DNA from: Verrucomicrobiota bacterium
Lineage (GTDB): Bacteria > Verrucomicrobiota > Verrucomicrobiia > Limisphaerales > UBA11358
Assembly: GCA_028873125.1 (NCBI GenBank)
Contig: JAGWMQ010000007.1
Location: 1-57,880 of the forward strand
Direction of reading: 5' to 3'
Length of the DNA: 57,880 nucleotides
Shown here: piece by piece, positions 4,042 to 49,743 of the stretch
How positions within the stretch are numbered: position 1 is the first letter of the stretch
Layout of the letters: every line of letters starts with the position of its first letter
Notes under the pieces: model-generated
The model's database searches: none
Seen by the model: only the letters and a program-made list of their open reading frames with translations
What the model was told of the DNA's origin: nothing
Position numbers and translations under genes: made by a program

Positions 4042-7000
4042 ATGAAACGAAACACCATCCTTGGGGCCGCCCTGTTCGCGGCCCTCACGGCCGCAATCGC
4101 GGCCCGCGCCCAAACCTACTCCAACGCCGTCATGAATTTGAATCCGGCGGCCTATTGGCCTTTGAGCGAAACCACGCCGCCGCCGCAGCCGTTGGATCTT
4201 ACCGCCCATAACCTGGGCAGCCTGGGGTCGTCCGGCAATGGATATTATGGCGCGTGGTATCAGCCCTCAGGCAGCACTTGGTACATTACCAACAACGTTG
4301 CTCAAACCAACGGCATCACCTTCGCGAACGACAGCGATACGGCGTTGTGGTGCCAGAGCCAGCCCGGCCAGTATGTCATCGTGCCGCGCAACACCAACGG
4401 CGCGGGCAATCCGGCCATAACGCTGGTTCCGCCGTTCACCATCGAAACTTGGGCATTGATTGGCGCGACCAATTCGGCCAACCGAACGCTGGTGAGCGAA
4501 GGGCAGGTGCCTTTGAACATCGGCGGGTCCGACACCAACAATCCCTATTACGGCGGCACCGGCACCGGCTGGGCCGGCTTTCCCTTGGGGCAATACCAGG
4601 ACTACTTCTATCTCAGTTGCTTCTGCACAAACGCCGTGAACAACAAGTCCAGCGAATTGGACACGAGCGGTTACAACAAATGGCAGGGGGTCAAAGTCGG
4701 ACAGTGGGTGTACGTGATGGCGACCTTTGACGGCACCACCGAAACTGTCTGGACCAACGGCGTGGTGGCGGCGTCCAAGAACGTTTCGGCCAACGGCGCC
4801 GGGCTGAAATACGTGCCAGACCCGACGTCGCCCCTGATGATCGGCAGCGGCAACATTGTGCCCCTGACCTCCGGCCAAAATACTTTCTCCGGCGCTTTGG
4901 ACGAAGTGGCCATTTACACCAACGTGCTCCCGGCGACGAGCATCCAGAACCACTTTGAAACCGCCTACGGCACCAACGCCACCTACGGCGCCAATTACAC
5001 CAACGCGGTGTTGGCGGACAACCCGATTCTTTATTACCGTTTGGATGAATTGCAGAGCAATCTCAGTGATCCGTATCCCAGCAGCACCTTTCCCACGGCC
5101 ACCAACTATGGCAGCTTGGGCGCCGCAGCAGACGGTGTTTACCAGCCGGGGACCACGCCGGGCGTGTCCGGTCCGTCCTACGCCGGCTTCGGCGCCGGCA
5201 GCAAGGCGGTGGCCATCAATGGCTGGTTCGGCGCGGTGGATGTGGGCGGCGGCAATCTTCCTGCCGAACTGAATCCGACCACCAACGTGCCTCTGAGCGT
5301 GGTCACCTGGTTCCGGAGCGGTCCCGCCGATGCGCCGGGACGCTTCCAGAACATTCTGGGACATGGCGACAATTCCTACCGCATGGCCCTGGGCCAGACT
5401 GCCGGTGAAAATCATTTTAACGCCGGCCACGGACCGGAGCTACAGTTTGCGAACCCGGCGGACGTGGCCACCAATGGCTTTGCCTTCAATGACGGCCGCT
5501 GGCACATGGCCGCGGGCGTCTTCGACGGCACGAATGAATACATGTACCTGGACGGCGCGCTGGCCAAGAGCGCAGTCGTGACCAATGCCATCATCGGCTC
5601 CACCAATGACCTGCTGTTGGGCGGAGATTCGCAATACACCTATGCCAGCGCCTCTTCGGGCAACACCATCAAGGACTTCGACGGCGAGGTGGCGCAGGTG
5701 GCCTTCTGGACCAATGCCCTTTCCGCGGCGGATATTCAGTCGCTGTTTTCCGCCGCGGGCGTTCCGCCTTACATCTGGCAGCAGACCACCGGGGCCACCT
5801 TGGATGCTGGTCAGAATGTGACGCTTTCCGTCGGCGCACGGGGCAGCGCGTTGAAGTATCAATGGTATCAGAATGATTCGCCCGTCACCGGACAGACCAA
5901 TGCCAGCCTCGTGTACGCGCCGTCGGAGGGCGCCAACGCCGGCAGCTATTATGTGGTGGCCAGCAACGCGGATGGCATGGTGACCAGCGCCGTGGTCAGC
6001 CTGACCATCTATTCCACCCCGGTGATCACCAGTCAGACTCCTAAAGCTTATACCAACCTGATCGCCCTTTTCGCCGGGGCCAATCCGACCTTCTCGGTTT
6101 CGGCGGTTGGTCGACAGCCCATTTCCTACCAGTGGCTGGCCGACGGCAATCCCGTCGCCGACGCCACCAACGCCAGCTTCACTTACACCAACATCCAGTC
6201 CGGCGGGCCGACGCACTTCAAGTGCGTGTTGACCAATCTCGACGGATCGGCCACCAGCATGGTCTGGAACATTTCCGTCCTTGCGGCGCCCACCGCGGCG
6301 TATCCGGCGGCGGTCCTGGCCGCCGCCCCGATTGGCTACTGGCGGTTGAACGAAGGTCCCGATGACGGCAACGGCAATCAAGGCGCCCTGTGTCACGATT
6401 ACGTGAGCGGCAACGACGGCATCTACACCAACGTCAATCTCGGCCAGTCGCCGGGCTACAGCCAGGCCACCGAGCCTGGCGTGACTTCGACGTTGTTTGG
6501 TTTGACGGGACTTTCCTTTTTCGACAGCGACGCCGACCAGATCGAGGGGATTGATTTCTCGGCCCCGACGAATAGCAGCGTGGCCTTCTCGGTCGAGGCC
6601 TGGATAAACGGCTATCAGCAGACCTCCGACGCCGGTCTGGTGACCAAGGGTTATGGAAACGGCGGCGAACAATTCTGCCTGGGCTTCGGGACCAACAGCG
6701 CCGTGGGCGCCGAAACCTTCCGTTTCCTGGTCCGGGACACCGCGGGGAACGCCTATGTCATCAAGACCGGAATGGCGCCCGTGTATGGCAACTGGTATCA
6801 TCTGGTGGGCGTTTGCGACGAGCCCAACGGGTTGTTGACGCTTTACGTGAACGGCGAGGCCGTCGGCACGCACAGCATCGGAACGAACGTCGGCATCCTG
6901 TCCTCGACCAATCCGGTGACCATCGGCTCCCGGATGAGCGGCGCCGGCACGGACAACGACTCGCAGTTTGTCGGCTACATGAACGACGTGGCCATTTACA

Positions 7001-8808
7001 ACCATGCCCTGACGTTCAGTCAGGTTGCCGCCCAGTACTATGATGCCGGCATCGCGGCGGTCATTACCCAGGCCGCGCCGGTGAATGTGACGACCAATCA
7101 AGGCTCGGATGTGACCTTTGAAGTCGCCGCTGGAGGCACGCCGCCGCTGACCTACCAATGGTACGACCCCAACAGCAATCCGCTGTCGGGAGCGACCAAC
7201 AGCACCTTGGTCCTGACCAATCTGCAGCAAAGCCAGTCGGGCATGTACAGCGTGACGGTGAACAACGCCTACGGCTCGGCCAGCACCAACTTCTCGCTCA
7301 ACGTGGTTCTGGGCCCGCCGCAGATTACGCAGGACCTGCAGCCGACCAGTTGGACCGGCTACGCGGGCACGCCGCTTACGTACTCGATCGTGGTGTCCGG
7401 CAGCCAGCCGCTCCATTATCAATGGTATCAGGACGGCATGGCGGTCCTCGACGAGACCAACTCCAGCTATTCCTTTGACGTGTTGTTGGGCACCCATACC
7501 TACTACTGCTCCGTCACCAACGCGTACAGCAGCGGGCCGACCGTCAGCAGCACGGCCACGGTCAACGGGATCGCGCCCACGACGGTGGACCCGGCCGGCT
7601 TCAACAGCCGTTTGAAGATCACCTTCAGCGGTTACGACCGCAATGAAACGCTGTCCGACTTCCCGGTCCTGGTGCGGTTGAGCACCAACGTGCCCGGCTT
7701 CTCCTACTCCGAGTTTGCCTCGCCCAGCGGCGGCGACCTGCGGTTCGCCGACTCCAGCGGCACGCGGGAGTTACCCAGTGAAATTGACCAGTGGAACGAC
7801 AGCAACGGCGTCTCCAGCGTCTGGGTGCAGGTGCCCAGCCTGTCGAGCATCAACGACTTCATCTGGGCCTACTGGGGCAATCCCAGCGATACGACCCCGC
7901 CGGATTCGCAAACCAACGGCGCCGTGTGGCTGCCGCCCTCGTTCCAGACCCTGCCGGCTTACGACGTGGTATATCACTTGAAGGAAGACGGCTTCCCCTA
8001 TGCCGACAGCACGACGCAGTATCCGTCAACGAACGGCACCGCGGCGATATTGTCGGGTGGCATTGTCGGATCCGGGGAGTTGTTTGCCGGCACCAATTAT
8101 CTCGACGCGCAGCCGGTCAGCTTGGGCAGTACGTTCACGCTCTCGGCCTGGGTGAATCTGTCGCCCACCGCTTCGCATCTTCAGACCGTCTGGGCGAACA
8201 GCCCGGGCGGCTGGAATTCGGACGGCTTCCGGTTCTACCTCAACTCCTGGACTGGAGGAGCCGACGGCATGCTGATCTTGGAGATTGGCGACGGGACCGG
8301 CGGCAACACGGTTGCCACGGCGGCGGGCGCGGTGTCGGCAGGCGCGTGGCACTGCGTGACCGCAGCCATTGATCATGACGGCGGCACGGCCAAATTGTAC
8401 GTGGATGGTGTTCAGGAGGCCGCCGATACCATTCTCAACGACTTTGCGACCAATGTTGACCTCAACCTGGGACAGTTCACCAATAATGCCGGCCAATTCA
8501 ACGGCTCGATTGATGAAGCACGCATCCAGGCCGGGGTCGAGTCGGCCAACTGGATCTGGGCCAGTTACATGACCGTGGCGCAAAATTCGCAGTTCGCCAC
8601 CTACTCGACGGTGAGCAACACGGTCCCTCTGTCGGTGAACATCACCATCCAGCTCTCCGGCAACAATGTGGTTCTGTCCTGGCCGCAGGGCACGCTCCAG
8701 TCGGCCAGTCAGGCCGCCGGTCCGTATAGCGACGTGCTCAGTGCTACCTCGCCTTACACCAACACCGTGTCCGGAGCGCAGGAGTTCTACCGGATCAAAG
8801 TCCAATGA
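4042..8808 (+). CDS. Secreted LamG / Ig-like / DUF2341 multidomain protein
   Basis: A 1588-residue exported protein, probably for binding or holding polysaccharide at the cell surface. No catalytic domain was recognised. It has a signal peptide (MKRNTILGAALFAALTAAIAARA). Two concanavalin-like LamG domains lie at about 4110-4990 and 5000-5790, Ig-like segments at about 5790-6280, a third LamG at 6300-7060, and another Ig-like pair at 7070-7580. DUF2341 follows at about 7600-7890 (SPSGGDLRFADSS, FIWAYWGNP), then a fourth LamG to about 8600. The last 60 residues form a small module ending in FYRIKVQ, shared with three other large exoproteins here. Repeated starts of the type NAVLADNPILYYRLDE show internal duplication. 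The stop overlaps the next gene by four bases (ATGA), so translation is probably coupled. Confidence 0.88.
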   Translation: MKRNTILGAALFAALTAAIAARAQTYSNAVMNLNPAAYWPLSETTPPPQPLDLTAHNLGSLGSSGNGYYGAWYQPSGSTWYITNNVAQTNGITFANDSDTALWCQSQPGQYVIVPRNTNGAGNPAITLVPPFTIETWALIGATNSANRTLVSEGQVPLNIGGSDTNNPYYGGTGTGWAGFPLGQYQDYFYLSCFCTNAVNNKSSELDTSGYNKWQGVKVGQWVYVMATFDGTTETVWTNGVVAASKNVSANGAGLKYVPDPTSPLMIGSGNIVPLTSGQNTFSGALDEVAIYTNVLPATSIQNHFETAYGTNATYGANYTNAVLADNPILYYRLDELQSNLSDPYPSSTFPTATNYGSLGAAADGVYQPGTTPGVSGPSYAGFGAGSKAVAINGWFGAVDVGGGNLPAELNPTTNVPLSVVTWFRSGPADAPGRFQNILGHGDNSYRMALGQTAGENHFNAGHGPELQFANPADVATNGFAFNDGRWHMAAGVFDGTNEYMYLDGALAKSAVVTNAIIGSTNDLLLGGDSQYTYASASSGNTIKDFDGEVAQVAFWTNALSAADIQSLFSAAGVPPYIWQQTTGATLDAGQNVTLSVGARGSALKYQWYQNDSPVTGQTNASLVYAPSEGANAGSYYVVASNADGMVTSAVVSLTIYSTPVITSQTPKAYTNLIALFAGANPTFSVSAVGRQPISYQWLADGNPVADATNASFTYTNIQSGGPTHFKCVLTNLDGSATSMVWNISVLAAPTAAYPAAVLAAAPIGYWRLNEGPDDGNGNQGALCHDYVSGNDGIYTNVNLGQSPGYSQATEPGVTSTLFGLTGLSFFDSDADQIEGIDFSAPTNSSVAFSVEAWINGYQQTSDAGLVTKGYGNGGEQFCLGFGTNSAVGAETFRFLVRDTAGNAYVIKTGMAPVYGNWYHLVGVCDEPNGLLTLYVNGEAVGTHSIGTNVGILSSTNPVTIGSRMSGAGTDNDSQFVGYMNDVAIYNHALTFSQVAAQYYDAGIAAVITQAAPVNVTTNQGSDVTFEVAAGGTPPLTYQWYDPNSNPLSGATNSTLVLTNLQQSQSGMYSVTVNNAYGSASTNFSLNVVLGPPQITQDLQPTSWTGYAGTPLTYSIVVSGSQPLHYQWYQDGMAVLDETNSSYSFDVLLGTHTYYCSVTNAYSSGPTVSSTATVNGIAPTTVDPAGFNSRLKITFSGYDRNETLSDFPVLVRLSTNVPGFSYSEFASPSGGDLRFADSSGTRELPSEIDQWNDSNGVSSVWVQVPSLSSINDFIWAYWGNPSDTTPPDSQTNGAVWLPPSFQTLPAYDVVYHLKEDGFPYADSTTQYPSTNGTAAILSGGIVGSGELFAGTNYLDAQPVSLGSTFTLSAWVNLSPTASHLQTVWANSPGGWNSDGFRFYLNSWTGGADGMLILEIGDGTGGNTVATAAGAVSAGAWHCVTAAIDHDGGTAKLYVDGVQEAADTILNDFATNVDLNLGQFTNNAGQFNGSIDEARIQAGVESANWIWASYMTVAQNSQFATYSTVSNTVPLSVNITIQLSGNNVVLSWPQGTLQSASQAAGPYSDVLSATSPYTNTVSGAQEFYRIKVQ

Positions 8809-11678
8809 CCGCGGCGGGGTCTGTGTGGCGCCGCGCTCGGGATGAGCGCGGCGCGCCGCCGGTTCTCCGCGGTGGAAAGACTGGAAAACGGGCGGCTGAC
8901 CCTGGGCGCCGCCGCGGGGCCGGCACCAGGCTTAAGTTGGCGGCGGCGGCGCTGGTTCTGATCGGAGCCGGGGGCATGTTGCAGGCGGCGACGTTGTCGG
9001 ATCCGCAGGTGGATGCCTACAACGTCCGGGTCGGCACCGAGACCTTTGCGGGGCTTTACAAGTTCACCACCAACACCCTGTTGGTTGAGACGGCCGAGGC
9101 CATCACGAACCTGGGCAGCGACACCATCAAGTTTTATCTCGGGTATGACACGTCGTTTCAGAGAGGTGTCACGCTCACGCCCAACATCACCAACCTGTTG
9201 ACACTGGCCCGCGACGAGCCCAGCTACCGGAAGGTGTTCGACATGCCGTTCCGGCATTACATCATCTGGGCCTATCCGTTTGCGAACTCGGATGATTGGT
9301 GGGGCAGCGGCTACAACGCCACCCAGGGGGCGAAGGATTACGGGGAAATGTATGATCTGACGCGTTATCTCCTGACCAACTACAACAACTCCGGCAAGAC
9401 CTTTTACCTCGGCCATTGGGAGGGTGACGGCTACCTCAAGGTCAATGATTGGACCACCAATCCCAGTCCGGCAACGATCCAAGGCATGATTGGCTGGCTC
9501 AACAACCGGCAGCAGGCCGTGGACGACGCCAAGCGCGACACGGTATTCACCAACGTCAACGTCTTCAATTACACCGAGGCCAACCGGGTGCGCGACGCCA
9601 TGCTCGACGGCCCAACCAACAACCAGCGGGTCATCAACTATGTCGTGCCTTACGTGACCAACCTGGATTACCTGTCCTATTCTTCCTACGATGCGGAGGA
9701 CCTCTCGGCGTCGGATCTGCACGCCACGCTCTACTACATGCAATCCATGCTGCCGGCCAACAAGGCCGGGAGCGTGCCCGGCGAGCGCATCTGGATCGGC
9801 GAGTACGGCCACGGCGGCTGGAGCACGGATTCGCAGGAGCCTTTCAATCGCGGTTACATCCAGCGGCTGCTCAACTGGAATTACAACGGGCAGGTCGTGC
9901 CCTTCATCCTATACTGGGAAATGTATGACAACGAGGCCGGCAAGAATTTCTGCCTGATTGACTCCAACAACGTCAAAACGGCAAGCTGGTATCTGCAAAA
10001 CTATTTCATCAACGACGCCCGGTTGCGCGTGGCCCAGTTCAAGGAAACCCATGGGCGGTTGCCCACCGACACGGAATTCGTTTCGCTGGTGTCGCCGTTG
10101 TTGGACCAGCCGCTGCCCGCGCCGGTCCCGCTCAGCCTGACCGACTTGGGCACGACGATGCTGACCAACACCTCGGTCACCGTTTCCGGCTCGCTCGCCC
10201 AGGGCGTTTACGGCGATGACCAGGCCAGGGTGTGGGTGTTTTACGGAAGAAAAGACGGAGGCACCACGCCCGGCGCTTGGGAAAACAGCCGGTTCATCGG
10301 CGTCAACACCAACTTCAATCCGACCACCTTCGTCGCCACACTCACCAACCTGGTTTCCCAAACCAACTATTTCTTCCGTTTCTACGCGACCAATGCCAGC
10401 AGCAGCGCCTGGGCGCCATCCTCCGCACAATTCGGCACCCAGACCCTCAACCCCTCCGACTTCGGTTCACGACTGAAAGTGTCGTTCGCGGGCTACCACC
10501 GCGCCGAAATCCTGACCAATTTTCCGGCGCTGGTAATCTTGAGCACGAATCTGCCGGGGTTTTCCTACCGGCAATTCGCCTCGCCCTCCGGCGGCGACCT
10601 GCGCTTCACCGATGGCGGTGGCTGGCGGCTGATTCCGCACGAAATTGATGAGTGGGACACCAATGGGACATCCGCCGTCTGGGTGAATGTGCCCTTGCTC
10701 TCGTCCAGCACCGATTGCATCTGGGCGTATTGGGGCAATCCAGCGGCGGCCAATCCGCCCTTCTACACGACCAACGGCGCCGCCTGGCCGGGCTTCGATC
10801 TGGTCTGGCACCTCAAGGAGAATGGGTTTCCTTTTGCGGACGGCACTCTCCAGCATCCGGCGACCAACGGGGTGACGCCCGTGCTCAACGGCGGCGTCAT
10901 CGGCCACGGCGAGTCGTTCGATGGCTTCACGGAATATTTGGACGCGGGGACCGTCAATCTGGGCACCGCCTTCACGCTGTCCGCCTGGGTGAATGTGGCG
11001 CTGAACGCGGGCAACATCCAGTCGGTCTGGGCCAACGGCGCCGGCGGATATAATTCCGCCGGCTTTCGCCTTTTCGTCAACAGCTACAATACCAGCGACG
11101 GAAAAGTCCTTTTGGAAACGGGCAACGGCAGTCAGGGGGCGGCCGCGGCGACCGGAACGGGGGCCGTCTCGTTCGGTCAATGGCACCTCCTGACGGCCGC
11201 CGTGGACGAGGCGGCGGGGGCAGCCCGATTGTTTGTGGACGGCGCGGACGAAACCCAGTCCGGCCCGGCGCTGACGGACTTTGCCAACCAGTCTGACGTG
11301 AACCTCGGGCGCTTCACCAACAGCGTTTATTATTTCAAAGGGGCGCTCGACGAGGCGCGCATCCAGTCCGGTGTCCAGTCGTCCAACTGGATTTGGGCAA
11401 GCTGGGCAACGGTGGCGGCCAACGCCGCCTTGGAAACTTATTCCGCCGTCGCCCGGGAGATTCCCGCGCTGACGATCGGCGCCGTCGGCGGCTCCGGCAC
11501 TCTTCTCACCTGGCCTGGCAGCGGCGTCGGCTTCGCGCTGTACTCGGCATCGAACCTGACGGCACCGGTCGTCTGGACTCAGGCCACGAACTCTCCGGTG
11601 CTGGCGGACGGCAGGTGGCAGGTGGATCTGGCCGCCAACAACCACGGCGCCTGCTTTTACCGTCTCAAGTCGCAATGA
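8805..11678 (+). CDS. Secreted putative glycosidase (TIM-barrel-like) with DUF2341 and LamG domains
   Basis: A 957-residue protein. After a long basic n-region, a hydrophobic stretch (LKLAAAALVLIGAGGMLQAA) looks like a signal peptide. Residues about 60-430 resemble a clan-A type glycosidase barrel. E206 in LGHWEGD and E333 in IWIGEYGHGG are plausible acid/base and nucleophile, and FILYWEMYDNE would close the barrel. I do not recognise the family, so the enzymatic role is an inference. A fibronectin-like segment leads into DUF2341 (about 545-650) and a LamG domain (about 690-880) that closely match the same pair at the end of the preceding protein. The C-terminus is the FYR-x-x-Q tail (FYRLKSQ). 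The four-base overlaps at both ends indicate one operon. Confidence 0.8.
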   Translation: MTAAGSVWRRARDERGAPPVLRGGKTGKRAADPGRRRGAGTRLKLAAAALVLIGAGGMLQAATLSDPQVDAYNVRVGTETFAGLYKFTTNTLLVETAEAITNLGSDTIKFYLGYDTSFQRGVTLTPNITNLLTLARDEPSYRKVFDMPFRHYIIWAYPFANSDDWWGSGYNATQGAKDYGEMYDLTRYLLTNYNNSGKTFYLGHWEGDGYLKVNDWTTNPSPATIQGMIGWLNNRQQAVDDAKRDTVFTNVNVFNYTEANRVRDAMLDGPTNNQRVINYVVPYVTNLDYLSYSSYDAEDLSASDLHATLYYMQSMLPANKAGSVPGERIWIGEYGHGGWSTDSQEPFNRGYIQRLLNWNYNGQVVPFILYWEMYDNEAGKNFCLIDSNNVKTASWYLQNYFINDARLRVAQFKETHGRLPTDTEFVSLVSPLLDQPLPAPVPLSLTDLGTTMLTNTSVTVSGSLAQGVYGDDQARVWVFYGRKDGGTTPGAWENSRFIGVNTNFNPTTFVATLTNLVSQTNYFFRFYATNASSSAWAPSSAQFGTQTLNPSDFGSRLKVSFAGYHRAEILTNFPALVILSTNLPGFSYRQFASPSGGDLRFTDGGGWRLIPHEIDEWDTNGTSAVWVNVPLLSSSTDCIWAYWGNPAAANPPFYTTNGAAWPGFDLVWHLKENGFPFADGTLQHPATNGVTPVLNGGVIGHGESFDGFTEYLDAGTVNLGTAFTLSAWVNVALNAGNIQSVWANGAGGYNSAGFRLFVNSYNTSDGKVLLETGNGSQGAAAATGTGAVSFGQWHLLTAAVDEAAGAARLFVDGADETQSGPALTDFANQSDVNLGRFTNSVYYFKGALDEARIQSGVQSSNWIWASWATVAANAALETYSAVAREIPALTIGAVGGSGTLLTWPGSGVGFALYSASNLTAPVVWTQATNSPVLADGRWQVDLAANNHGACFYRLKSQ

Positions 11679-13241: not shown

Positions 13242-15824
13242 GTGAAAACAAACAACATCGCGCGAGGCATTCTGCTCGCCTGCCTGGTTGCGGGCGCGGC
13301 TGATGCCTTTGCCCAGCCGACGGTGAAAGTGGAACTGCCGGGGCTGCGTCCGGACGGATCGGTGCTGCTGCCGGACCGGTGGTCGCTGCGCCCGGCGGGC
13401 CGCCAGGTGCTGCTGGGGGATTTTCCGGTCAACATCGCCGTTCATCCCGCCGGCCGGTTCGCGGCGGTCCTCCATTCCGGTTACAGCCGCAATGAAATCA
13501 TCGTGGTGGATTTGAAGGCGGCGAAGGTGGTTTCGCGCACGCCGCTGGAGGAATCCTTTTACGGCCTGGCCTTTTCGGCCAACGGCCGGCGCCTGTATTG
13601 CAGCGGCGGCGGCCAGGAGGTCGTCCACGTCTTTGATTTCAAGGACGGCAGGCTGACGCCGGACCGCGAGCTCCGCCTGCGCGACGCGCAGCAACGCGGC
13701 GTGCCCTGCGGCCTGGCGGTGTCAAAGAATGAACACCAACTGTTTGCCGCCAATGTGTGGGGCCAGACGGTTTCGGAAGTCAATCCGGCCAACCCAACCA
13801 ACGTGACGGACATCGTGTTCACCACGAACGCCATTAACGCCGCGGCCACTTTCAAAAACCGAGGTCCGATTGACCCGTATCTGGCTGCCGTCCAAAAGCG
13901 TGCCCAGGCGGCGCTGGATCCTTCCAAACCCGACGCGTCGTTTCCCTACGATTGTGTTCTGGACGAAAAACGCCGCCGGCTCTACGTCAGCCTGTGGGCG
14001 CAATCCTGCGTGGCGGTGGTGGATTTGACAACGCGCCGGGTCCTGGCCCGCTGGCCCACCGGCGAACATCCCAATGAAATGCTCCTGACGAAATCGGGCC
14101 GCCATCTTTTCGTGGCCAACGCCAACCTGAACACGGTGACCGTCCTGGACACGGCCGCCGGACGGGCCGGAGAGACCTTGAACGCGGCGCTGGGGCCTCA
14201 TGCCTTGCCGGGTTCCACACCGAACAGCCTGGCGCTGTCGCCGGACGAGTCCAGGCTGTTCGTCGCCGACGCCTGCAACAACAACGTGGCCGTGTTTGAC
14301 GTCAGCACCATCGGCAAGAGCCGGGCGCTGGGCTTCATCCCGGTGGGCTGGTATCCAACCTCGGTGCGCGTGACCCCGGACGGCCGGAAACTGCTGGTGG
14401 CGGACGGCAAGGGGCTGATTTCCATGGCCGATCCGCACGGGCCGGAACCGGGCAAGCCGAACTACGTGGGAACACAGTACATCGGCAATCTGTTTCCCGG
14501 CGCGTTGAGCATCATTGATTTGCCAAAGGGGAAAAACTTTGAACGGCAACTCGCCGCCTGGACGGCGCGGGCGTATCAATGCACGCCGCAGCACAGCGTC
14601 GCGCCCGTGACCCCGGCGGCGGACAACCCGGTCCCGGTCCGGCAGGGCCTGCCGAGTCCGATCAAGTATTGCATTTACATCATCAAGGAAAATCGGACTT
14701 ACGACCAGGTCCTCGGCGACCTGAAGGAAGGCAACGGCGACCCCGACCTTTGCCTCTTTCCCGAAAAGGTCGCGCCCAATCATCACAAGCTCGCGCGGGA
14801 ATTTGTGCTGCTCGACAACTTCTACGTGGACGCCGAGGTCAGCGCCGACGGCCACGAATGGTCCATGGGCGCTTACGCGAGCGATTTTGTGGAAAAAACC
14901 TGGCCGTTGAGCTACGGGCACAATCAGGAGGGAAAATATCCCTATCCGTCCGAGGGTTCCTTCCCGATTGCTTATCCGGCCAACGGCTATTTGTGGGACC
15001 GGGCGCGGGAGGCGGGCGTCAGCTACCGCAGCTACGGCGAATTTGTGCAAAACAGCGACAAGCCCGGCGAACCGGCGTTCACCCACGTCGCCACGCTGCA
15101 AGGACGTTTTGATCCCTGGTATCGGTCGTTCGACATAGACTACTCCGATGTCCAGCGCGCGAAGCATTTCATCGGCGAACTGAAACGTTTTGAAGCCGCA
15201 GGCCACATGCCGCGGCTGCAAATTCTGCGCCTGCCCAACGATCACACCTCCGGCACGGTCAAAGGAGCCCTCACGCCGACGGCTTTGGTGGCCGACAACG
15301 ACCAGGGACTGGGACTATTGGTGGACGCGGTGAGTCATTCGAAGTTCTGGCCGCAGACGGCGATTTTTGTCCTCGAAGACGACGCCCAGGACGGCCCCGA
15401 CCACGTGGACGCGCACCGCAGCCCGGCGTTCATCATCAGTCCTTACGCCCGGCACGGCGCGGTGGATTCCACGATGTATTCCACCAGCAGCATGTTGCGG
15501 ACGATGGAATTGATTCTCGGCCTCCAGCCCATGACCCAGTTCGACGCCGCGGCCACGCCGATGTTCAACGCGTTCCAGGCCCGACCGGATTTGCGCCCAT
15601 ACGACGCCGCGCCGCCGCAGGTGGATTTACAGGAGCGCAACACGGCGAAATCCTGGGGCAGCGCCGCCTCGGGAAAAATGAATTTCAGCAGGGAAGATGC
15701 CACCGGCGAGCAGCAGCTCAACGAAATCATCTGGCATTCCGTGCGCGGCGCAAACAGCCCGATGCCCGCGCCCGTCCACGCTGCGTTTGTGTTCGGGCAT
15801 TCAAAGGATGACGATGATGACTAA
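13242..15824 (+). CDS. Exported YncE-type beta-propeller / phosphoesterase (alkaline phosphatase-like) fusion
   Basis: About 860 residues, starting at a GTG that gives a clean signal peptide (KTNNIARGILLACLVAGAADAFAQ). Residues about 30-430 are propeller repeats of YVTN/YncE type (AVHPAGRFAAVLHSG, LALSPDESRLFVADA). The second half matches the bifunctional YncE/phosphoesterase family: KENRTYDQVLGDL, a DGHEWSMGAY motif, LPNDHTSGT and LEDDAQDGPDHVDAHRSP, the last with likely metal ligands. The role is hydrolysis of an unknown phosphate ester in the periplasm. The 31-base gap before it and the 8-base overlap with the next gene place it in the operon. The protein ends in DDDDD, produced where its reading frame crosses the repeated ATG/ATGA start region of the GH2 gene. 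Confidence 0.87.
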   Translation: MKTNNIARGILLACLVAGAADAFAQPTVKVELPGLRPDGSVLLPDRWSLRPAGRQVLLGDFPVNIAVHPAGRFAAVLHSGYSRNEIIVVDLKAAKVVSRTPLEESFYGLAFSANGRRLYCSGGGQEVVHVFDFKDGRLTPDRELRLRDAQQRGVPCGLAVSKNEHQLFAANVWGQTVSEVNPANPTNVTDIVFTTNAINAAATFKNRGPIDPYLAAVQKRAQAALDPSKPDASFPYDCVLDEKRRRLYVSLWAQSCVAVVDLTTRRVLARWPTGEHPNEMLLTKSGRHLFVANANLNTVTVLDTAAGRAGETLNAALGPHALPGSTPNSLALSPDESRLFVADACNNNVAVFDVSTIGKSRALGFIPVGWYPTSVRVTPDGRKLLVADGKGLISMADPHGPEPGKPNYVGTQYIGNLFPGALSIIDLPKGKNFERQLAAWTARAYQCTPQHSVAPVTPAADNPVPVRQGLPSPIKYCIYIIKENRTYDQVLGDLKEGNGDPDLCLFPEKVAPNHHKLAREFVLLDNFYVDAEVSADGHEWSMGAYASDFVEKTWPLSYGHNQEGKYPYPSEGSFPIAYPANGYLWDRAREAGVSYRSYGEFVQNSDKPGEPAFTHVATLQGRFDPWYRSFDIDYSDVQRAKHFIGELKRFEAAGHMPRLQILRLPNDHTSGTVKGALTPTALVADNDQGLGLLVDAVSHSKFWPQTAIFVLEDDAQDGPDHVDAHRSPAFIISPYARHGAVDSTMYSTSSMLRTMELILGLQPMTQFDAAATPMFNAFQARPDLRPYDAAPPQVDLQERNTAKSWGSAASGKMNFSREDATGEQQLNEIIWHSVRGANSPMPAPVHAAFVFGHSKDDDDD

Positions 15825-25300: not shown

Positions 25301-28300
25301 ATGAATGGCTTGGTGGGATCTTCTTCGAACCAGTTTGCGTTCCCAAAGCTCGGCTGGGGCCGTCTCACAAGCATCGCCAGAATTGGCTGCCTCCTGTGGT
25401 CGGCGTTGTGGCTGGGATGGACGACCGCCGAAGCGCAGTCACAACGGGTCGTCGCCGGTCATGCCCCGGAGGCGGTGGCGCATCTGAAGTCAGTCGGCGT
25501 TTTGCCAGCCACTCATCGGCTGCGTTTGGTCCTCGGCCTGCCGCTGCGTCATCAGCCGGCGTTAAACGATCTGATCGGGCAATTGTACGATCCGGGCAGC
25601 GCCAGCTATCACCGGTGGTTGAAGCCGGAGCAATTCACGCAACGATTCGGTCCGACGCGGGACGATTACGAGAAGGTGATCGCTTTCGCCAGGGCCAATG
25701 GTTTGGAGGTGACCGGTCTTTGCTCCAACCGGATGCTGGTGGACGTGGAGGCGCCGGTGTCGAACATTGAAAAGGCGTTCCGCGTGACGTTGCGCCTTTA
25801 TCCGCATCCGACGGAGAAGCGGAATTTTTACGCGCCGGACACCGACCCGACGGTGGACACCAACGTTCCCATCCTGCAGGTCAGCGGCCTGGACAACTAC
25901 ATCGTGCCGCATCCTTTGCTGAAATTGGGAAACAACGCCTCACCCGCCGATTCCAACCAGCCCGTGACGCCCTTTGCCACCGGTTCCGGGCCGGGCGGCG
26001 ATTTTACCGGGAAAGATTTTCGCGCCGCCTACGCCCCGGGCGTGACCAATACCGGCGCCGGCCAATACATCGCCATCGTGGATGTCGGCGGCCCTTACTA
26101 CGCGAAGGACATTTACATGTATGAGACCAACGCCGGCTTTTCCACCAACATCGTCGTCACCAACATTCTGCTCTCGGGCTGGACCGGCGTTCCCACCGGC
26201 TCCAGCCAGGATGACGGAGAGGAGACGTTGGACATTGACATGGCGCTCTCCGTGGCGCCGGGCGCGACGATCCTGAACTACGAGGGCGAGGCACACGACG
26301 TTTTCAACCGCATCGCCACGGACGATCTGGCCAAGCAAATCACGCTGTCCTACGGCTTCGGCATTGACGCGAGCATCCAGCAGATGTTCATGGAATTCGT
26401 CGCGCAGGGGCAGGCGTTTTTCCAGGCGTCGGGTGATGGCGGCGCCGACCTGCCCGGCGGCACCGGATTGACCGGCGAGCCGTACGCCACGATTGTCGGG
26501 GGAACCTCGCTAACGACCAGCGGGGCGGGCGGGCCGTGGCAGTCGGAGACGACTTGGATTGGCAGTGGCGGCGGCAGCAGCGGCTACGGAATTCCCGCCT
26601 GGCAACAAGGCGTCAACATGGCCGCCAACCAAGGCTCGACCCTCGTGCGCAATTATCCGGACGTGGCGATGCTGGCGGACACGGTGATCTGGTGGTATTT
26701 CAAGAATGGCCAGGGGGGAACGGTCGGCGGGACCAGCGCTTCCTCGCCGCAATGGGCCGGTTTCATGTCGCTGGTCAATCAATCGGCGGCCGCCCGCGGC
26801 CTGCCGTCGGTGGGTTTCCTAAACCCGGCCGTTTATGCCATTGGCAAAGGAAACTACTCCGCCTACGCCAATGCGTTTCACGATATTGCCACGGGCAATA
26901 ATTTCAATTCCCAGAACCCGACGCGGTATGCGGCTGCGTATGGCTACGACTTGTGCACCGGCTGGGGCAGTCCCCGGGGAAACAGCACCATCGCCGCGCT
27001 TGTCGGTTTCGGGACCAACGACTTCACGCTAAATGCGTCGCAAGTGGGTCTCACCGTAGTGCCCGGCGGCGTCGCGGTCGCCGTCCTTCAAGTGGCGCCC
27101 ATGAAGGGTTTCAAAGGGAATGTCAGTCTGGCGATGTCGGCGTTGCCGGCCGGCGTGGCCGCGTCGCTGAACCCGTCGTCCGTGACGACCAACCCGAGCA
27201 TCCTGACGCTGACGACCAGCAGCAGTACTCCGGCGGAAACGAGCAATTTGACCTTGACGGCCGCATCCGGCGCATTGACACATACGTTGACGATCAACCT
27301 CGCCGTACTGCCGCCGTATCCCGGCGCGGCGCAGGTGAGCCTTTCGTCTTACTTCAACCGCGCCGGCATTTACACTGATGGCAGCGTGTTCGGCGGTGGC
27401 TTGGATGGGGGCGGTTCAGCTTACTCGGCGAACCTGCTGGGGCCGCGGCCGAGCTTGGGAAACATGCTCTTTGCCCTCGGACCGGCGAACAGCGGCGACG
27501 CCATAGCCTGTTCAGGCCAGACGCTGGCGCTTCCCGCCGGCCATTACACGACCTTGCAGATGCTGGCCACCGGCATCAACGGCAACCAAAACAACCAAAC
27601 GTTCAACGTGAGTTACACGGACAATTCGAAGACCACCTTCGCGCAAGGCGTCAGCGACTGGTTCACGCCGCAGCATTACGCCGGCGAGTCCATTCTCGCC
27701 GCCATGCCTTACCGCGACAATTCCAACGGCACCAAGGACAATCGAACGTTTTACCTGTATGATCATTCCTTTACGCTCGACCAGACGAAGACGGTCAGAA
27801 GCATCACCCTGCCGAACAACGGCAACGTGATCGTCATGGCGATCACGCTCGCAAATGCCCCGGCGGCGGCTTCGCTGGCCTCCTTTTACAATCGCGCCGG
27901 GATTTACACCGACGGCACGACGTTTACCAATCCGCCCAGCGGCGGCATGGACGGCGGCGGTTACGCGTATTCGGCCAACCTGCTGACCGGCTCGCAAACC
28001 TGGAGCAACACGCTGTTCAATTTCGGTCCCGCCAACGCGACGAACGTCGTCAGCGCCGCCGGCCAGACCCTTCCGCTGCCGGCGGGCAATTATTCCATCC
28101 TGCGGATGCTGGCCACGGGCGTGCAGGGCAACCAGATGTCGCAAACCTTCAATGTGAATTACATGGACGGCACGGCACAGAGTTTTGTCCAAAGTCTGAG
28201 CGACTGGTATTCGCCGCAAAACTACGCCGGCGAATCCAAGGCGCTGGTCATGGGCCATCGCAACGTCAGCGACGGCACGGCGGACAAGCGGACCTTTTAT

Positions 28301-28885
28301 CTCTACGGCTACTCGTTCAAATTGAACAGCGGCAAGACGGTTCAAAGCCTCCGGCTGCCGAATGATCCCGACGTGATTGTCGCCGCCGTCAGCCTGGTTC
28401 CCAACTGGCCGCCCACGTTCAACCTCAATCCTTTCGCCGAACCCGACGTCGTCGCGGGACAAAATTATTCCGCCAACATTTCGACCAACGCCGGCGATCT
28501 GGACGGCGACGCGCTCGCCTTCGCCAAGGTCAGCGGCCCGGCTTGGCTCAACGTCTCCGATTCCGGCGCGCTGTCGGGCACGCCGCTGTCGGCCCAGGTG
28601 GGCACGAACACGTTTCTGGTGAGCGTCACGGACTCGGGCGGTTTGTCCAACACCGCCACCTTGAACATCACCGTCCTGCCCGCGCCGCCGATCCTTCTCG
28701 GCATCATCAACGCCACGACCAACCTGGTCTTGAACTGGAGCGGCGGAATCGCCCCATTCCAGGCGCAGATGTCCACGAATCTGGCCAGCCCGAACTGGGT
28801 CAATGTCGGCAGCCCCATCAGTTCAAACACGCTCGTCATCGCGCCCAGCAACGCGGCGGCGTTTTACCGCATCCTGGGACAATGA
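25301..28885 (+). CDS. Pro-kumamolisin S53 peptidase with duplicated C-terminal modules
   Basis: A 1194-residue secreted protease. After a signal segment (about 20-45), a pro-kumamolisin activation domain spans about 55-205 (HRWLKPEQFTQRFGPTRDDY). The S53 domain is at about 225-570, with E307 and D311 in EETLDIDMA and the nucleophile S479 in GGTSASSPQWAG. An Ig-like segment leads into two tandem copies of a module of about 170 residues, each opening with YNRAGIYTDG or FNRAGIYTDG. A cadherin/He_PIG-like domain follows (PAWLNVSDSGALSGTPL), then the C-terminal tail ending FYRILGQ. The double module resembles the C-terminus of the GH38 mannosidase at 37-40 kb. A good Shine-Dalgarno sequence supports the start. 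Confidence 0.9.
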   Translation: MNGLVGSSSNQFAFPKLGWGRLTSIARIGCLLWSALWLGWTTAEAQSQRVVAGHAPEAVAHLKSVGVLPATHRLRLVLGLPLRHQPALNDLIGQLYDPGSASYHRWLKPEQFTQRFGPTRDDYEKVIAFARANGLEVTGLCSNRMLVDVEAPVSNIEKAFRVTLRLYPHPTEKRNFYAPDTDPTVDTNVPILQVSGLDNYIVPHPLLKLGNNASPADSNQPVTPFATGSGPGGDFTGKDFRAAYAPGVTNTGAGQYIAIVDVGGPYYAKDIYMYETNAGFSTNIVVTNILLSGWTGVPTGSSQDDGEETLDIDMALSVAPGATILNYEGEAHDVFNRIATDDLAKQITLSYGFGIDASIQQMFMEFVAQGQAFFQASGDGGADLPGGTGLTGEPYATIVGGTSLTTSGAGGPWQSETTWIGSGGGSSGYGIPAWQQGVNMAANQGSTLVRNYPDVAMLADTVIWWYFKNGQGGTVGGTSASSPQWAGFMSLVNQSAAARGLPSVGFLNPAVYAIGKGNYSAYANAFHDIATGNNFNSQNPTRYAAAYGYDLCTGWGSPRGNSTIAALVGFGTNDFTLNASQVGLTVVPGGVAVAVLQVAPMKGFKGNVSLAMSALPAGVAASLNPSSVTTNPSILTLTTSSSTPAETSNLTLTAASGALTHTLTINLAVLPPYPGAAQVSLSSYFNRAGIYTDGSVFGGGLDGGGSAYSANLLGPRPSLGNMLFALGPANSGDAIACSGQTLALPAGHYTTLQMLATGINGNQNNQTFNVSYTDNSKTTFAQGVSDWFTPQHYAGESILAAMPYRDNSNGTKDNRTFYLYDHSFTLDQTKTVRSITLPNNGNVIVMAITLANAPAAASLASFYNRAGIYTDGTTFTNPPSGGMDGGGYAYSANLLTGSQTWSNTLFNFGPANATNVVSAAGQTLPLPAGNYSILRMLATGVQGNQMSQTFNVNYMDGTAQSFVQSLSDWYSPQNYAGESKALVMGHRNVSDGTADKRTFYLYGYSFKLNSGKTVQSLRLPNDPDVIVAAVSLVPNWPPTFNLNPFAEPDVVAGQNYSANISTNAGDLDGDALAFAKVSGPAWLNVSDSGALSGTPLSAQVGTNTFLVSVTDSGGLSNTATLNITVLPAPPILLGIINATTNLVLNWSGGIAPFQAQMSTNLASPNWVNVGSPISSNTLVIAPSNAAAFYRILGQ
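27335..27860 (+). repeat. Module copy 1 (about 170 residues) within the S53 peptidase
   Basis: Opens with FNRAGIYTDG, then has SAYSANLLG, GPANSGDAI, GQTLALPAG, TFNVSYTDNS and RTFYLYDHSF, ending in RSITLPNNGNVIVMAITL. It aligns throughout with the next copy and, more weakly, with the end of the GH38 protein. It is probably a beta-sandwich binding module, an inference from its pattern. Confidence 0.75.
27870..28400 (+). repeat. Module copy 2 (about 170 residues) within the S53 peptidase
   Basis: Tandem second copy, with YNRAGIYTDG, YAYSANLLTG, GQTLPLPAGNYS, TFNVNYMDG, RTFYLYGYSFKL and QSLRLPNDPDVIVAAVSL. Similarity to copy 1 runs from end to end with few gaps. Confidence 0.75.
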
Positions 28886-45705: not shown

Positions 45706-48700
45706 TCATTGCGAGAGTTCGAGGCGGTAGAATTGTTGCGGACTGGTCATCGGCGCGCTGAATTGCCAAACGCCGTTGGTGCCCAGCGTGTTGGTGGCCA
45801 GCGGCAGCCAGCCGCCGGGCACGGCGAGGTTTGTGGTGGCTTGGAGGATGTAGGTGAAGCCGGCGCCGCCGTTCAGTTCGAGGAGAACGGTGTTGTTGGT
45901 GCCGCCGGACACGCTGGTGATGGCAGGGGTGGCGTTGGTCGGCAACGGCAGCACGGTGACGGTCACGGCCTGATAATTGGTCCCGCCCCAGCCGTCGCTG
46001 ACGGTGCAAACAAAGAGGTCATCCACATTGTTGGAGTTGACATAGACCAGTGTGCCGGCGTCGTTGGTGACGGTCACGCCGTTGGTGCTCACGCCGATGC
46101 CCACCAGCGAAACCGTGTCGCCGTCCGGGTCGCTCCAATTCGACGACAGGTTGGCGACCGGGATGTAGAGTGTGAAGCCGGCGTAGCGATAGGTCGAGAA
46201 GGGCGCCGCCACCGGCGGATGGTTGGTGACGATTTGCGCGAGCAGGTTGGTCGCCGGCAGATAAACGGTGTCGCCCGAATAGACGGCGGCAATGAAGTTG
46301 GTGCCGCGTGGCAGCGTATCGTTGGTCACGCTCGCCGCAAGCCCCGCAAGCAGTGACTCGGTGTCGAAGGCGATGCTGTTGGTGAGAAATTCCACCGAAC
46401 CGGTGGCGTTGGTCGGCATGAGGCTGGCGCTGAAATAAATTCCATCCTTGTAACCGGTGGGATTTTCGGATGAAGCCAGGGCCAGCGAAGGCTGGAGCCG
46501 GGCAACCGTCAGGACGGCGACAGCGCTGGTGCTGGAACCGCCGGCGGCGCTGGCGACGACAAAGTAATCTCCCGCCAGCGTCGAGTCGAGATTGGAAATC
46601 GTCAGCGTGCTGTTGTTCTCGCCGGCCAGCAGGGCGTTGTTGAAATACCATTGGTAAGCCAGCGGCGTGCATGCCGTCGCCACAAGACTGAAGCTGGCGT
46701 TGGTTCCGGCACTGACGGTCTGGCTTTGCGGCTGGTTCCAGATCAGCGGTGGGGATTGGTCCTGGACGGTGACGGAGTTGGTCGAGTAGGCGGCGTTGCC
46801 GTAGGCGTCCAGGACGGTGAGCACTACGGGATTGGTGCCCTCGGGCAGGACGGCGCCGTTGGTGGGACTCTGGGTGATGGTCAGGGGCCCGGACAGGTCG
46901 GTGGCCAGGATAAAGTTGGTTCCGGTCACGTCGGGCAGGAGGGCGCTGCAATTGGTGCCGGCGGCCAGGACCAGGTTGGTGAAGCTCCATTCAATGGTCG
47001 GAGGCGTGGTGTCCTGGACAATGACCGTGCGGGTGACGGTGTTGGTGTTGCCATTGCCGTCGCCGGCGGTGTAGGTGACCAGGTTGGTCCCCACGACATT
47101 GGTGTTGACCGAGCCGGTGATGGTGACAGGGACCACGCCCATGCACAGGTCGTAGGCCGACGCCCCCGGCTCGGTGTAGGCGCTGCCCAATTCGACGTAA
47201 TACGGATTGGTGCTGTTCAAGCTGATCACCGGCGGAAGCGTGTCCTGCACGACCAGCGCCGTCGAACTGGTCGCGCTGCCGTAGAGATTGGTGACCAGGA
47301 CCGTCACGGTGTGATCAGGCAGAGGCACGCCGGTCAACAGCAGATTGGTGCTGGTCGCGCCCGCGATGGCCGTCCCGTCCAGGCTCCACTGGTAATGCAA
47401 CGGCGCCGTGCCGGTGGCGGTCACGCTGAAAGCGGCGTTGCTGCCGCACTGGATGGTCAGGGACGAAGGTGGCACGGTGATGGTCGGCGGCTCGGTCACC
47501 GTCAGGGTGGCCACGCTGCTGGTGGCCGAGCCGTAGAGGTCGGTGACGACCAACGTGTAATTGCCGGCGTCGCCCAGGGTGACCGAGGTGAGCGTCAACA
47601 CGTTGCTGGTGGCGCCCGACACGTTGCCGCCATTGAGCAGGTTGGTTCCGTTCTGCCGCCACTGATAAGCTAGCGGCGAGGCGCCGGCGACCGTCGCGCT
47701 GAAGACCGCATTGCCGCCGACGGGGACCGTTTGGTTCGTCGGTTCCGTGGTGAAGGTGGGCGGAAACACCACGGTCAGCGCGGCCACGCTGCTGGTCGCA
47801 GCGCCGTAGCCGTTGGTAACGACGACGTTGTAATTGCCGGCGTCGGCGGACGTGACGGAGGCGATAGTCAGCGTGCTGCTGGTCGCGCCGGAAATATTTC
47901 CGCCACTGGTCAGGGCGTTTCCGTTGAACAACCATTGATAGCTCAACGGCGACTGGCCGCCGGCGGTGACGCTGAAGGTGACGTTGTTTCCATTGGTCGC
48001 CGTCTGGCTGGCCGGCGGCGTGAGGATGGAGGGCGTCGGCACAAGGGCGTTGATCAGGTTGGTGCCGGTGGGCGTGCCCAGGCCGGTGCACAGGTCGTAG
48101 CCGGTGACGGCGTAGAAGAGTCCGGGCGTGTTGGTGCCGATGTTGTTGCCGGTGGTGGTGTCGTGAAAGCAGGCGGAGTAATTGGCGCTGTTGGCAATGG
48201 TGTAAAAGGCCGGATTAAGAAAACCGACCGTGTCGGTGGAGTTGCCGGAAGCCGCGACGGAGGCTTGATTGACCAGCGCGCAAAAGCCGGCCCACAACGG
48301 CGCGGCGCAACTGGTGCCGGCAAAGCCCCCCGAACTGCCGTTGTTATAGTCCACAAAGACCTGGTCGGCGGTGAGGGCCACGTCGGGGATGTTGCGCATG
48401 GTGGTGGAGCCGGAATTGGCGGACATGCTCACGTTCGTCTGCCACCAAGGGATGGTGTAGTAAGTGCTGATGCCGCCTCCCGAGCCGGTGTTGGCGTAGG
48501 AACCGCCATAGCTGTGGTAATTCCAAACCTTCTCGGACGACCACGACGCGCCGGAGCCGTTCATCGTCAAAGTCGTGCCGCCGACGGCAATCACGTTGGT
48601 GCTGTCCACCGGCGCATCCGTCAGGCTGGAATTATCCAGCGCGTTCGCGCCGGTGTAGGCATCGTCGTCGCCGGAGGCCTGGAAGAAGGTTTGTCCTTGG

Positions 48701-49743
48701 GACTGCATTTGTTTGAAGGTGGCGTCAATGGTCGAGTTGGGGCCGCCGCTCCAGGACCAGGAACAGCTTATCTGTTTGGCCAGATCGTCCGTGGCCATCT
48801 TTTGCAAAAGGCTGCTGGCGCTGCCGCTGCTTTCATACACGATCACCTTCGACAGTTGCGGCGCCATGGCGATGGCCACCTCGATGTCCAGCGCCACCTC
48901 GGCGTTGTTGTTGGCGTTGGGCGCGGGGTGCCCCACCACCACGTTGTTCAGGGGAACATAATTCGTCATGCCGATGGTGTTTTCGTAATTGGTGATGTCC
49001 GACTGGTAGTAGGACGAGAATTCCACCAGTCCCACCGTCTGGCCCGAGCCGGTGAGCGTGGTGCCGGGCACGTAGGCGTTGCGAAAATCGTTGCCGGCGA
49101 AATAGCCGCTGGGACCGGAGCCGGAAAGCGGCCGGGTCAGCGGCGGCCTGGCCGGATGCAACAGGGGATGCGGCGGTTCAAAATTGCTCAGGCCCTCCAC
49201 GTCCAGCACCGGCACATTCGCGGGCACGGACGGCTCGGTGTCCGGCGCATAAAATTCGCGCGGCTCCGTCGGGTGGCGGTAAAGGCGCAGGGTGATTTGA
49301 AAGGCGCGTTCGACGTTGGAGACGCCGCCCACCACGTCCAGGATCATCCGGCTGCGATCCGTGCCGACCACGATGAAGCCGTTGCTCTCGGCGAACCGGA
49401 TGACCAACTGATATTGCTGCCGGGTCGGGCCGAAACGTTCGGCAAACTGCCCGGGCGCAAGGTATTTGTGGTAATTCGTGCTGTGGGGGTCCTGAAGCTG
49501 CCGCAGAAACTCATCGAGTTCCGATTGGTTCCGCAACGGCAGTCCAAGGGTCAAGGGAAGGTTGGTCGTCTCCGGCAGGAGGCCCTTCGGTGTCAGCCGC
49601 GCCACCACCGGCGGAACGTGTCCGCGCAACGTCGTCCGTCCTGGCTCTGCCCCAAAAAGAGATGGCGCCGTGCTCCACAATTGGACAACAGCCATTGCGC
49701 AAAGCAGCAGTCTCCCGGCCAGCGAGGCGACTTTTACTTTCAC
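45706..49743 (-). CDS. Pro-kumamolisin S53 peptidase with multiple Ig-like domains
   Basis: 1345 residues, secreted. After a signal segment (about 1-32), the pro-kumamolisin domain spans about 40-195 (YHKYLAPGQFAERFGPTR) and the S53 catalytic domain about 215-550. Catalytic E282 and D286 lie in AEVALDIEVA and the nucleophile S478 in AGTSCAAPLW. The rest is a string of Ig-like domains. Three at about 550-815 repeat SPLSYQWLFNG-like cores, an HYR-like pair lies at about 820-985, another Ig at about 1000-1080, and a cadherin-like domain near 1175-1260 (SNWSDPDGDTVSLVG). It ends with the C-terminal module and FYRLELSQ. The long Ig stalk probably displays the protease away from the cell. Confidence 0.92.
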   Translation of the reverse strand: MKVKVASLAGRLLLCAMAVVQLWSTAPSLFGAEPGRTTLRGHVPPVVARLTPKGLLPETTNLPLTLGLPLRNQSELDEFLRQLQDPHSTNYHKYLAPGQFAERFGPTRQQYQLVIRFAESNGFIVVGTDRSRMILDVVGGVSNVERAFQITLRLYRHPTEPREFYAPDTEPSVPANVPVLDVEGLSNFEPPHPLLHPARPPLTRPLSGSGPSGYFAGNDFRNAYVPGTTLTGSGQTVGLVEFSSYYQSDITNYENTIGMTNYVPLNNVVVGHPAPNANNNAEVALDIEVAIAMAPQLSKVIVYESSGSASSLLQKMATDDLAKQISCSWSWSGGPNSTIDATFKQMQSQGQTFFQASGDDDAYTGANALDNSSLTDAPVDSTNVIAVGGTTLTMNGSGASWSSEKVWNYHSYGGSYANTGSGGGISTYYTIPWWQTNVSMSANSGSTTMRNIPDVALTADQVFVDYNNGSSGGFAGTSCAAPLWAGFCALVNQASVAASGNSTDTVGFLNPAFYTIANSANYSACFHDTTTGNNIGTNTPGLFYAVTGYDLCTGLGTPTGTNLINALVPTPSILTPPASQTATNGNNVTFSVTAGGQSPLSYQWLFNGNALTSGGNISGATSSTLTIASVTSADAGNYNVVVTNGYGAATSSVAALTVVFPPTFTTEPTNQTVPVGGNAVFSATVAGASPLAYQWRQNGTNLLNGGNVSGATSNVLTLTSVTLGDAGNYTLVVTDLYGSATSSVATLTVTEPPTITVPPSSLTIQCGSNAAFSVTATGTAPLHYQWSLDGTAIAGATSTNLLLTGVPLPDHTVTVLVTNLYGSATSSTALVVQDTLPPVISLNSTNPYYVELGSAYTEPGASAYDLCMGVVPVTITGSVNTNVVGTNLVTYTAGDGNGNTNTVTRTVIVQDTTPPTIEWSFTNLVLAAGTNCSALLPDVTGTNFILATDLSGPLTITQSPTNGAVLPEGTNPVVLTVLDAYGNAAYSTNSVTVQDQSPPLIWNQPQSQTVSAGTNASFSLVATACTPLAYQWYFNNALLAGENNSTLTISNLDSTLAGDYFVVASAAGGSSTSAVAVLTVARLQPSLALASSENPTGYKDGIYFSASLMPTNATGSVEFLTNSIAFDTESLLAGLAASVTNDTLPRGTNFIAAVYSGDTVYLPATNLLAQIVTNHPPVAAPFSTYRYAGFTLYIPVANLSSNWSDPDGDTVSLVGIGVSTNGVTVTNDAGTLVYVNSNNVDDLFVCTVSDGWGGTNYQAVTVTVLPLPTNATPAITSVSGGTNNTVLLELNGGAGFTYILQATTNLAVPGGWLPLATNTLGTNGVWQFSAPMTSPQQFYRLELSQ

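Follow-up and report, generated by a model that had tools for sequence, protein, structure and literature searches.

An uncatalogued C-terminal FYR domain family of Verrucomicrobiota and its possible role in protein sorting

The FYR-containing tails that close four proteins encoded in a 57,880-nucleotide stretch of Verrucomicrobiota DNA (the window, meaning that whole stretch) belong to a real, large and almost phylum-bound family of C-terminal domains that is not catalogued in Pfam or NCBIfam. Judged from their sequences and from structural models, the four tails are versions of a single folded domain some 60-75 residues long, which in the genome of origin is carried by about ninety otherwise different proteins, most of them exported-looking. 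The reading that we prefer, to which we give somewhat less than an even chance, is that this FYR module is a C-terminal sorting domain of Verrucomicrobiota, which would work in the manner of a T9SS or PEP-CTERM tag while being neither of them.

Translation of the window confirmed the four tails FYRIKVQ, FYRLKSQ, FYRILGQ and FYRLELSQ at the sites reported in the initial annotation, each followed directly by a stop codon. The first LamG protein (ORF 4042..8808, + strand; Pfam Laminin_G_3, Ig_3 and others), which has a signal-like N-terminus, carries the shortest copy of the module at 8599..8808 (+; profile match 8599-8805, E 1.0e-11) and ends FYRIKVQ. The second LamG protein (ORF 8805..11678, +; Pfam LamG and DUF2341) carries its copy at 11445..11678 (+; profile match 11445-11675, E 9.5e-18) and ends FYRLKSQ. 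The other two parents are S53-type proteins with a Pfam pro-kumamolisin activation domain: in the first (ORF 25301..28885, +; also He_PIG), the module lies at 28652..28885 (+; profile match 28652-28876, E 6.2e-16) and ends FYRILGQ, and in the second (ORF 45706..49743, − strand; also Ig repeats and Big_9), it lies at 45706..45975 (−; profile match 45715-45975, E 6.5e-19) and ends FYRLELSQ. A peptidase ORF adjoining an S53 gene (23938-25146, −; Peptidase_S8 match, signal-like N-terminus) is without an FYR tail and ends APALP. The parents had been described as four unrelated exoproteins; they represent two different parent types, but as two pairs (two LamG and two pro-kumamolisin S53 proteins) they are not wholly unrelated. 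Similarly, the TNL/SNL plus W core ascribed to most of the tails is present in three of them, whereas the shorter copy at 8808 has neither element. When the window was scanned in six frames for [FY][FYW]R with a stop within eight residues, 12 places were found, and the eight beyond the four tails are short frames with no module before them. No Pfam or NCBIfam domain was reported for the tail region of the four proteins.

A first profile, made from the four window tails alone, was run against the 3.74 Mb genome of the same organism with E up to 10, revealing 47 places, the four included, of which 44 end 0-23 residues before a stop codon. A wider profile was then made from 69 tails, namely 43 of 44 tails of this genome (a 62-residue fragment was dropped) and 26 from other genomes, and with E up to 0.01 it detected at least 107 copies in the genome, with 150 of 164 candidates scored. 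Therefore, with so many places recovered by both profiles and those of the first so close to a stop, the tails are not a chance resemblance. One of the 107 copies runs off a contig end, so its placement could not be judged and the denominator is 106. Within this set, 94 copies, each on its own ORF, end at most 10 residues from the stop codon. One more ends 13 residues before it, and 11 are internal: eight have a known stop, and three are 500 residues or more away from any stop in their stretch. Extreme C-terminal placement, as proposed from the window, thus holds genome-wide, and internal copies, whose frequency had been named as the check on that proposal, proved to be few. A few of the 94 terminal copies are weak or fragmentary, such as C167 (E 8e-4, no FYR end) and those in ORFs of 62-123 aa. 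In a background set of 166 non-tail ORFs of at least 250 codons, taken stop to stop from the same DNA and perhaps including some spurious ones, F[FYW]R was found in the last 14 residues of a single ORF.

The internal copies mostly pass straight into the next stretch, with no evident strand G or extra strand. One of the eight with a known stop (C135:10246-10449) no longer has its FYR end in frame, perhaps owing to a frameshift close to its terminus. On contig 187, one ORF ends in tandem FYR modules (C187:17781-18245, L056), the first of which ends 75 residues before the stop.

A related fold type was used as a control for placement. Unlike the FYR module, none of the nine PF00041 (fn3) matches in the same genome ends within 10 residues of the stop, one lies at 16, and seven of the nine sit in ORFs that end in an FYR module, so that both domains occur in one protein. 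By this one control, which with nine fn3 matches is small, terminal placement is not just the usual behaviour of such domains.

The very last residue was also analysed. The terminal copies of the genome end in Pro (50/94) or Gln (26/94), that is, 76/94 together, versus 26 of the 166 background ORFs (9/36 of those with a signal-like N-terminus and 17/130 of the others). Each of the four Pro codons and the two Gln codons is in use at this position, and a comparison of the DNA 3′ of the stop in terminal copies revealed no conservation. The spacing is narrow: of 89 copies, 47 have four residues following FYR and 22 have five. However, Pro or Gln occupies the same position after FYR in several internal copies too, and among the terminal copies of relatives from the same order, only 11/24 end in Pro or Gln, with Lys or Arg in 9/24. 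For these reasons the last residue may be a strand-ending cap, which fits as well as a recognised end.

The proteins that carry the module look exported more often than others. By crude signal-peptide rules, under which roughly one carrier in three went unscored and several that look exported by eye were missed, an export-like N-terminus was detected in 58 of the 87 carriers whose 5′ ends are complete versus 45 of 166 other ORFs (hydropathy rule), and a second rule gave 54/87 carriers with any start or, with Met starts only, 47/87 versus 36/166. A membrane-helix-like stretch was found in the last 120 residues of none of the 87, which rules out a PEP-CTERM-type anchor. Pfam (E up to 1e-5) was run on 66 of the 94 carriers (250-1400 aa). 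Among 25 of the 64 families, LamG accounts for 10 carriers, Ig families for up to nine, beta-helix for four and pro-kumamolisin for three; glucoamylase, arylsulfotransferase and LRR occur in single carriers, and RCC1 and Big are also represented.

Six glycoside hydrolase genes of the window (families 2, 31, 38, 92 twice and 116) are without an FYR tail; the export of their products was judged by eye, and for some of them only. Within this group, a family 92 gene is split at 18801-21043 (+), with the N-terminal domain (18801-19790) and the catalytic domain (19589-21043) in different frames, apparently by a frameshift or an assembly error, and family 2 parts are spread over ORFs 15697-18312 and 17894-18814 (+), which overlap and of which the second has an Ig_GlcNase end, an arrangement over 15697-18814 that suggests a frameshift.

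When genomes of Verrucomicrobiota were scanned with the profile, as the initial annotation had advised, the module proved widespread and mostly C-terminal. It was detected in all 39 genomes sampled from the same order, with 1 to at least 134 matches per genome when up to 140 candidates were scored, and, at up to 37 candidates scored per genome, in 45 of the 145 genomes of a phylum sample that includes its own (44/144 others). Taking the best hit per genome, 24 of 25 order relatives end at most three residues from the stop, and a further four of four likewise, and in the other genomes of the phylum sample 26/29 end within six.

The same family was approached through the S53 proteins. With one of these, 41 loci were gathered by six search peptides, none of them from the tail, and 19 loci contain the module: 18 of the 27 titled Verrucomicrobiota and 1 of the 14 others. 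Out of 24 matched stretches, 21 end within 10 residues of the stop, one locus contributing two rows that are a single split match. Among the genomes behind 20 of the 41 loci, seven match the module. Six of the 20 are titled Verrucomicrobiota, and four of these hold 78 to at least 150 copies, while two Opitutia genomes gave no module match; one further genome behind these loci has at least 150 copies. A MAG titled Proteobacteria bacterium WB4_2_1501 (G183, locus L218) holds 46 modules, and its title is suspect and may be wrong. The other 12 genomes (Planctomycetota, Bacteroidota, Ignavibacteria, Arthrobacter and Clostridia) were without the module in 11 cases, the sole exception being Taibaiella soli with two weak matches. 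In 18 module loci taken from the matching genomes, those of Taibaiella set aside, the best match ends at most five residues from the stop in 17 and at 17 in the other; one of the 18 has a second, fn3-like internal match.

Residues 40-540 of the second S53 protein found 5140 relatives at E up to 1e-20. The best 120 of the 5140 were examined, 114 of them new, and 92 of these 114 end in the module (E under 0.01). The remainder comprise 14 with an FYR-like tail by eye, three with 15-31 extra residues beyond such a tail and five that look truncated or frame-shifted. In the combined set of 140 S53 proteins, 26 of which were chosen by the tail itself, the module was detected by HMM in 116, and 106 of the 116 end in Pro or Gln.

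The AlphaFold2 models of the copy ending at 11678 (pLDDT 90.6) and of the copy at 45706 (pLDDT 88.3) both have six strands. The predicted fold is an FN3-like sandwich with strands in the order A-B-C-C′-E-F, in which FYRLxx would form the last strand, with FYR opening it, and strand G, which closes an ordinary FN3 domain, would be absent. The TENCON FN3 structure 4lpw_A aligns to residues 2-76 of 93 of the modelled chain. The module may thus resemble fibronectin type III (PF00041) in predicted strand order and fold, but without the last strand. At the sequence level, PF00041 matched 1 of 44 own-genome tails (E 0.075), below its curated cut-off of 25 bits. No Pfam or NCBIfam model covers the module in these 44 tails with E up to 1, and the Por_Secre_tail and PEP-CTERM models gave no match among them in the same search. 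Weak profile similarity was detected to carbohydrate-binding chains of glucanases and chitosanases, which we take to be CBM32 (best E 0.0028), and to an Fn3-like protein (E 0.027). A search of the open-licence PMC literature found no prior description of the FYR tail.

The two Taibaiella soli matches (L263 and L270, profile E 1.2e-5 and 1.2e-4) connect the module with T9SS cargo. There, the domain ends YYRLK-MDETDGKVTYSNVVVLK or FYRLK-TVYTDGSSDYSQVIKL, so that a further strand-like stretch follows YYRLK or FYRLK; from the end of the matches to the stop there are 109 and 111 residues, and in both proteins a T9SS type A sorting domain closes the chain, as matched by TIGR04183 (E 5.1e-9 and 8.1e-8) and PF18962. 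A one-to-one hhalign comparison of the FYR profile with a template of five distinct sequences of this type (L263, L270 and three further proteins) gave a probability of 95.3; the 60 aligned columns stop at the point where the extra stretch starts. The profile matches and the hhalign result indicate that the FYR module is probably related to a T9SS cargo domain and has neither its strand G nor the sorting domain. The FN3-like domain of Taibaiella has a similar profile, YYRLK strand included, but is followed by an extra hairpin and a T9SS domain, neither of which the FYR module has.

The module is not itself a T9SS tail, as no Por_Secre_tail was found among the 44 tails and only 1 of 38 order genomes has any, the own genome having none. 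SprA (TIGR04189) had no match in the own genome, but none in control genomes either. T9SS type A tails (PF18962, TIGR04183) likewise close the chains of a wide variety of exported proteins, are Ig-like and are largely phylum-bound, and T9SS-type tails track their machinery with few exceptions (PMC10202324). However, they are another sequence family, and the two models of the FYR module show six predicted strands, not seven. PMC4804311 describes the T9SS C-terminal domain as a seven-stranded Ig-like sandwich whose last two strands carry the signal, and the last strands can swap between molecules.

The initial annotation had taken the tails for a sorting or anchoring signal comparable to T9SS or PEP-CTERM tails. 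The placement and the excess of exported-looking carriers agree with such a signal, but the tails are neither a T9SS tail nor a PEP-CTERM-type anchor. In terms of position within the chain, the counts speak more for sorting than for an ordinary binding module. In the sorting scheme, carriers would cross the inner membrane by their signal peptide, the FYR domain would fold in the periplasm, and an envelope machine would read its open C-terminal edge and pass the cargo to the outer surface or the medium. This route is modelled on the T9SS with its Ig-like C-terminal domain, and the machine would not be the T9SS as known by its tail family. As for a co-occurring secretion gene, the second thing that the initial annotation had asked for, a GspD-type (type II) secretin, the only checked candidate in all order genomes, is present in 39/39 (18 over the curated cut-off); but secretins are common, which makes this a weak pointer, and the secretin is a possible machine, not a likely one. 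A more specific and unlikely version of the sorting scheme is a donor-strand form of T9SS-type sorting, in which an outer-membrane export route of the Verrucomicrobiota's own would have a transporter or shuttle donate the missing strand to the F edge, serving up to a hundred-plus cargo proteins per genome. Against sorting in general, the 11/106 internal copies without an evident strand G indicate a shape that is not tied to the chain end, and the spread from 1 to at least 134 copies within the order is one that a core route by itself would not predict; the lack of any match in the two Opitutia genomes points the same way.

Uneven copy numbers and internal copies keep a structural or binding cap close behind, as a credible though lesser candidate. 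Such a cap would take no part in export but would close or protect the C-terminus of large extracellular proteins, or bind a glycan or a neighbour. Its C-terminal position would follow from the fold ending with its own last strand, and duplication of gene ends would have spread it. The FN3-like predicted fold, the weak similarity to carbohydrate-binding chains and an Fn3-like protein, the presence of some internal copies (one in tandem), the Pro found after FYR in internal copies too and the very uneven copy numbers between genomes are all consistent with it. In contrast, about nine of ten copies are terminal on proteins of widely differing kinds, whereas the nine fn3 matches keep more than 10 residues from the end, and the six window glycoside hydrolase genes, some judged exported by eye, do without the module.

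Descent from T9SS-type cargo offers another, improbable explanation, in which the FN3-like domain would be a leftover of that design, kept for stability during secretion after loss of the sorting domain. The Taibaiella matches, which stop 109/111 residues before the end with PF18962/TIGR04183 to follow, and the hhalign probability of 95.3 over 60 columns are in its favour; but the five distinct sequences of Taibaiella kind that were compared do not fix the direction of descent, and a pure stability role does not explain why a strand was lost as well.

Less probable still is a donor-strand acceptor as in chaperone-usher pilins, with another protein supplying strand G so that surface polymers or delivery by a chaperone would result. 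In the strand lettering of the pilin Ig fold, it is strand G that is missing. Both the Ig-like chaperone-usher pilin and the FYR module have incomplete folds, the latter ending at strand F at the C-terminus in the two AlphaFold2 models, but both models reach high confidence with no partner strand present, a sign that the domain may be stable alone. Also, the FYR module is found on large multidomain exoproteins, whereas chaperone-usher pilins are small subunits; according to PMC6615685, their Ig-like fold is incomplete until a donor strand is added.

PEP-CTERM and MYXO-CTERM tags consist of a short motif and a membrane helix, the former with a PEP motif and a basic end. A processed, sortase-like tag of the PEP-CTERM/exosortase kind is already largely refuted and hardly credible here, despite the 12 PEP-CTERM and two exosortase matches of the own genome and an exosortase in 36/39 order genomes, given the lack of a membrane helix (0/87), the absence of a PEP-CTERM match in 44 tails and the genomes G153 (57% complete), G151 and G168, with 14, 1 and 2 modules and no exosortase detected. 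These tags share with the FYR module a C-terminal position on dozens of proteins, as is described for MYXO-CTERM in PMC11980579, but the FYR module is predicted to be a soluble folded domain with no helix. As PEP-CTERM and exosortase matches occur beside FYR modules in one genome, two C-terminal tagging styles may share one envelope.

Verrucomicrobiota are abundant in soil and water, where they degrade polysaccharide and protein, and to our knowledge it is not settled by which route their large enzymes and adhesins reach the outside of the outer membrane. The 94 carrier ORFs are about 3% of the genes, with gene number estimated from the 3.74 Mb genome. Even as a mere cap, the FYR module would be a large domain family absent from Pfam and NCBIfam. 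As a sorting domain, a common C-terminal module of this kind would define the secretome from sequence alone and would give a bait for the machinery.
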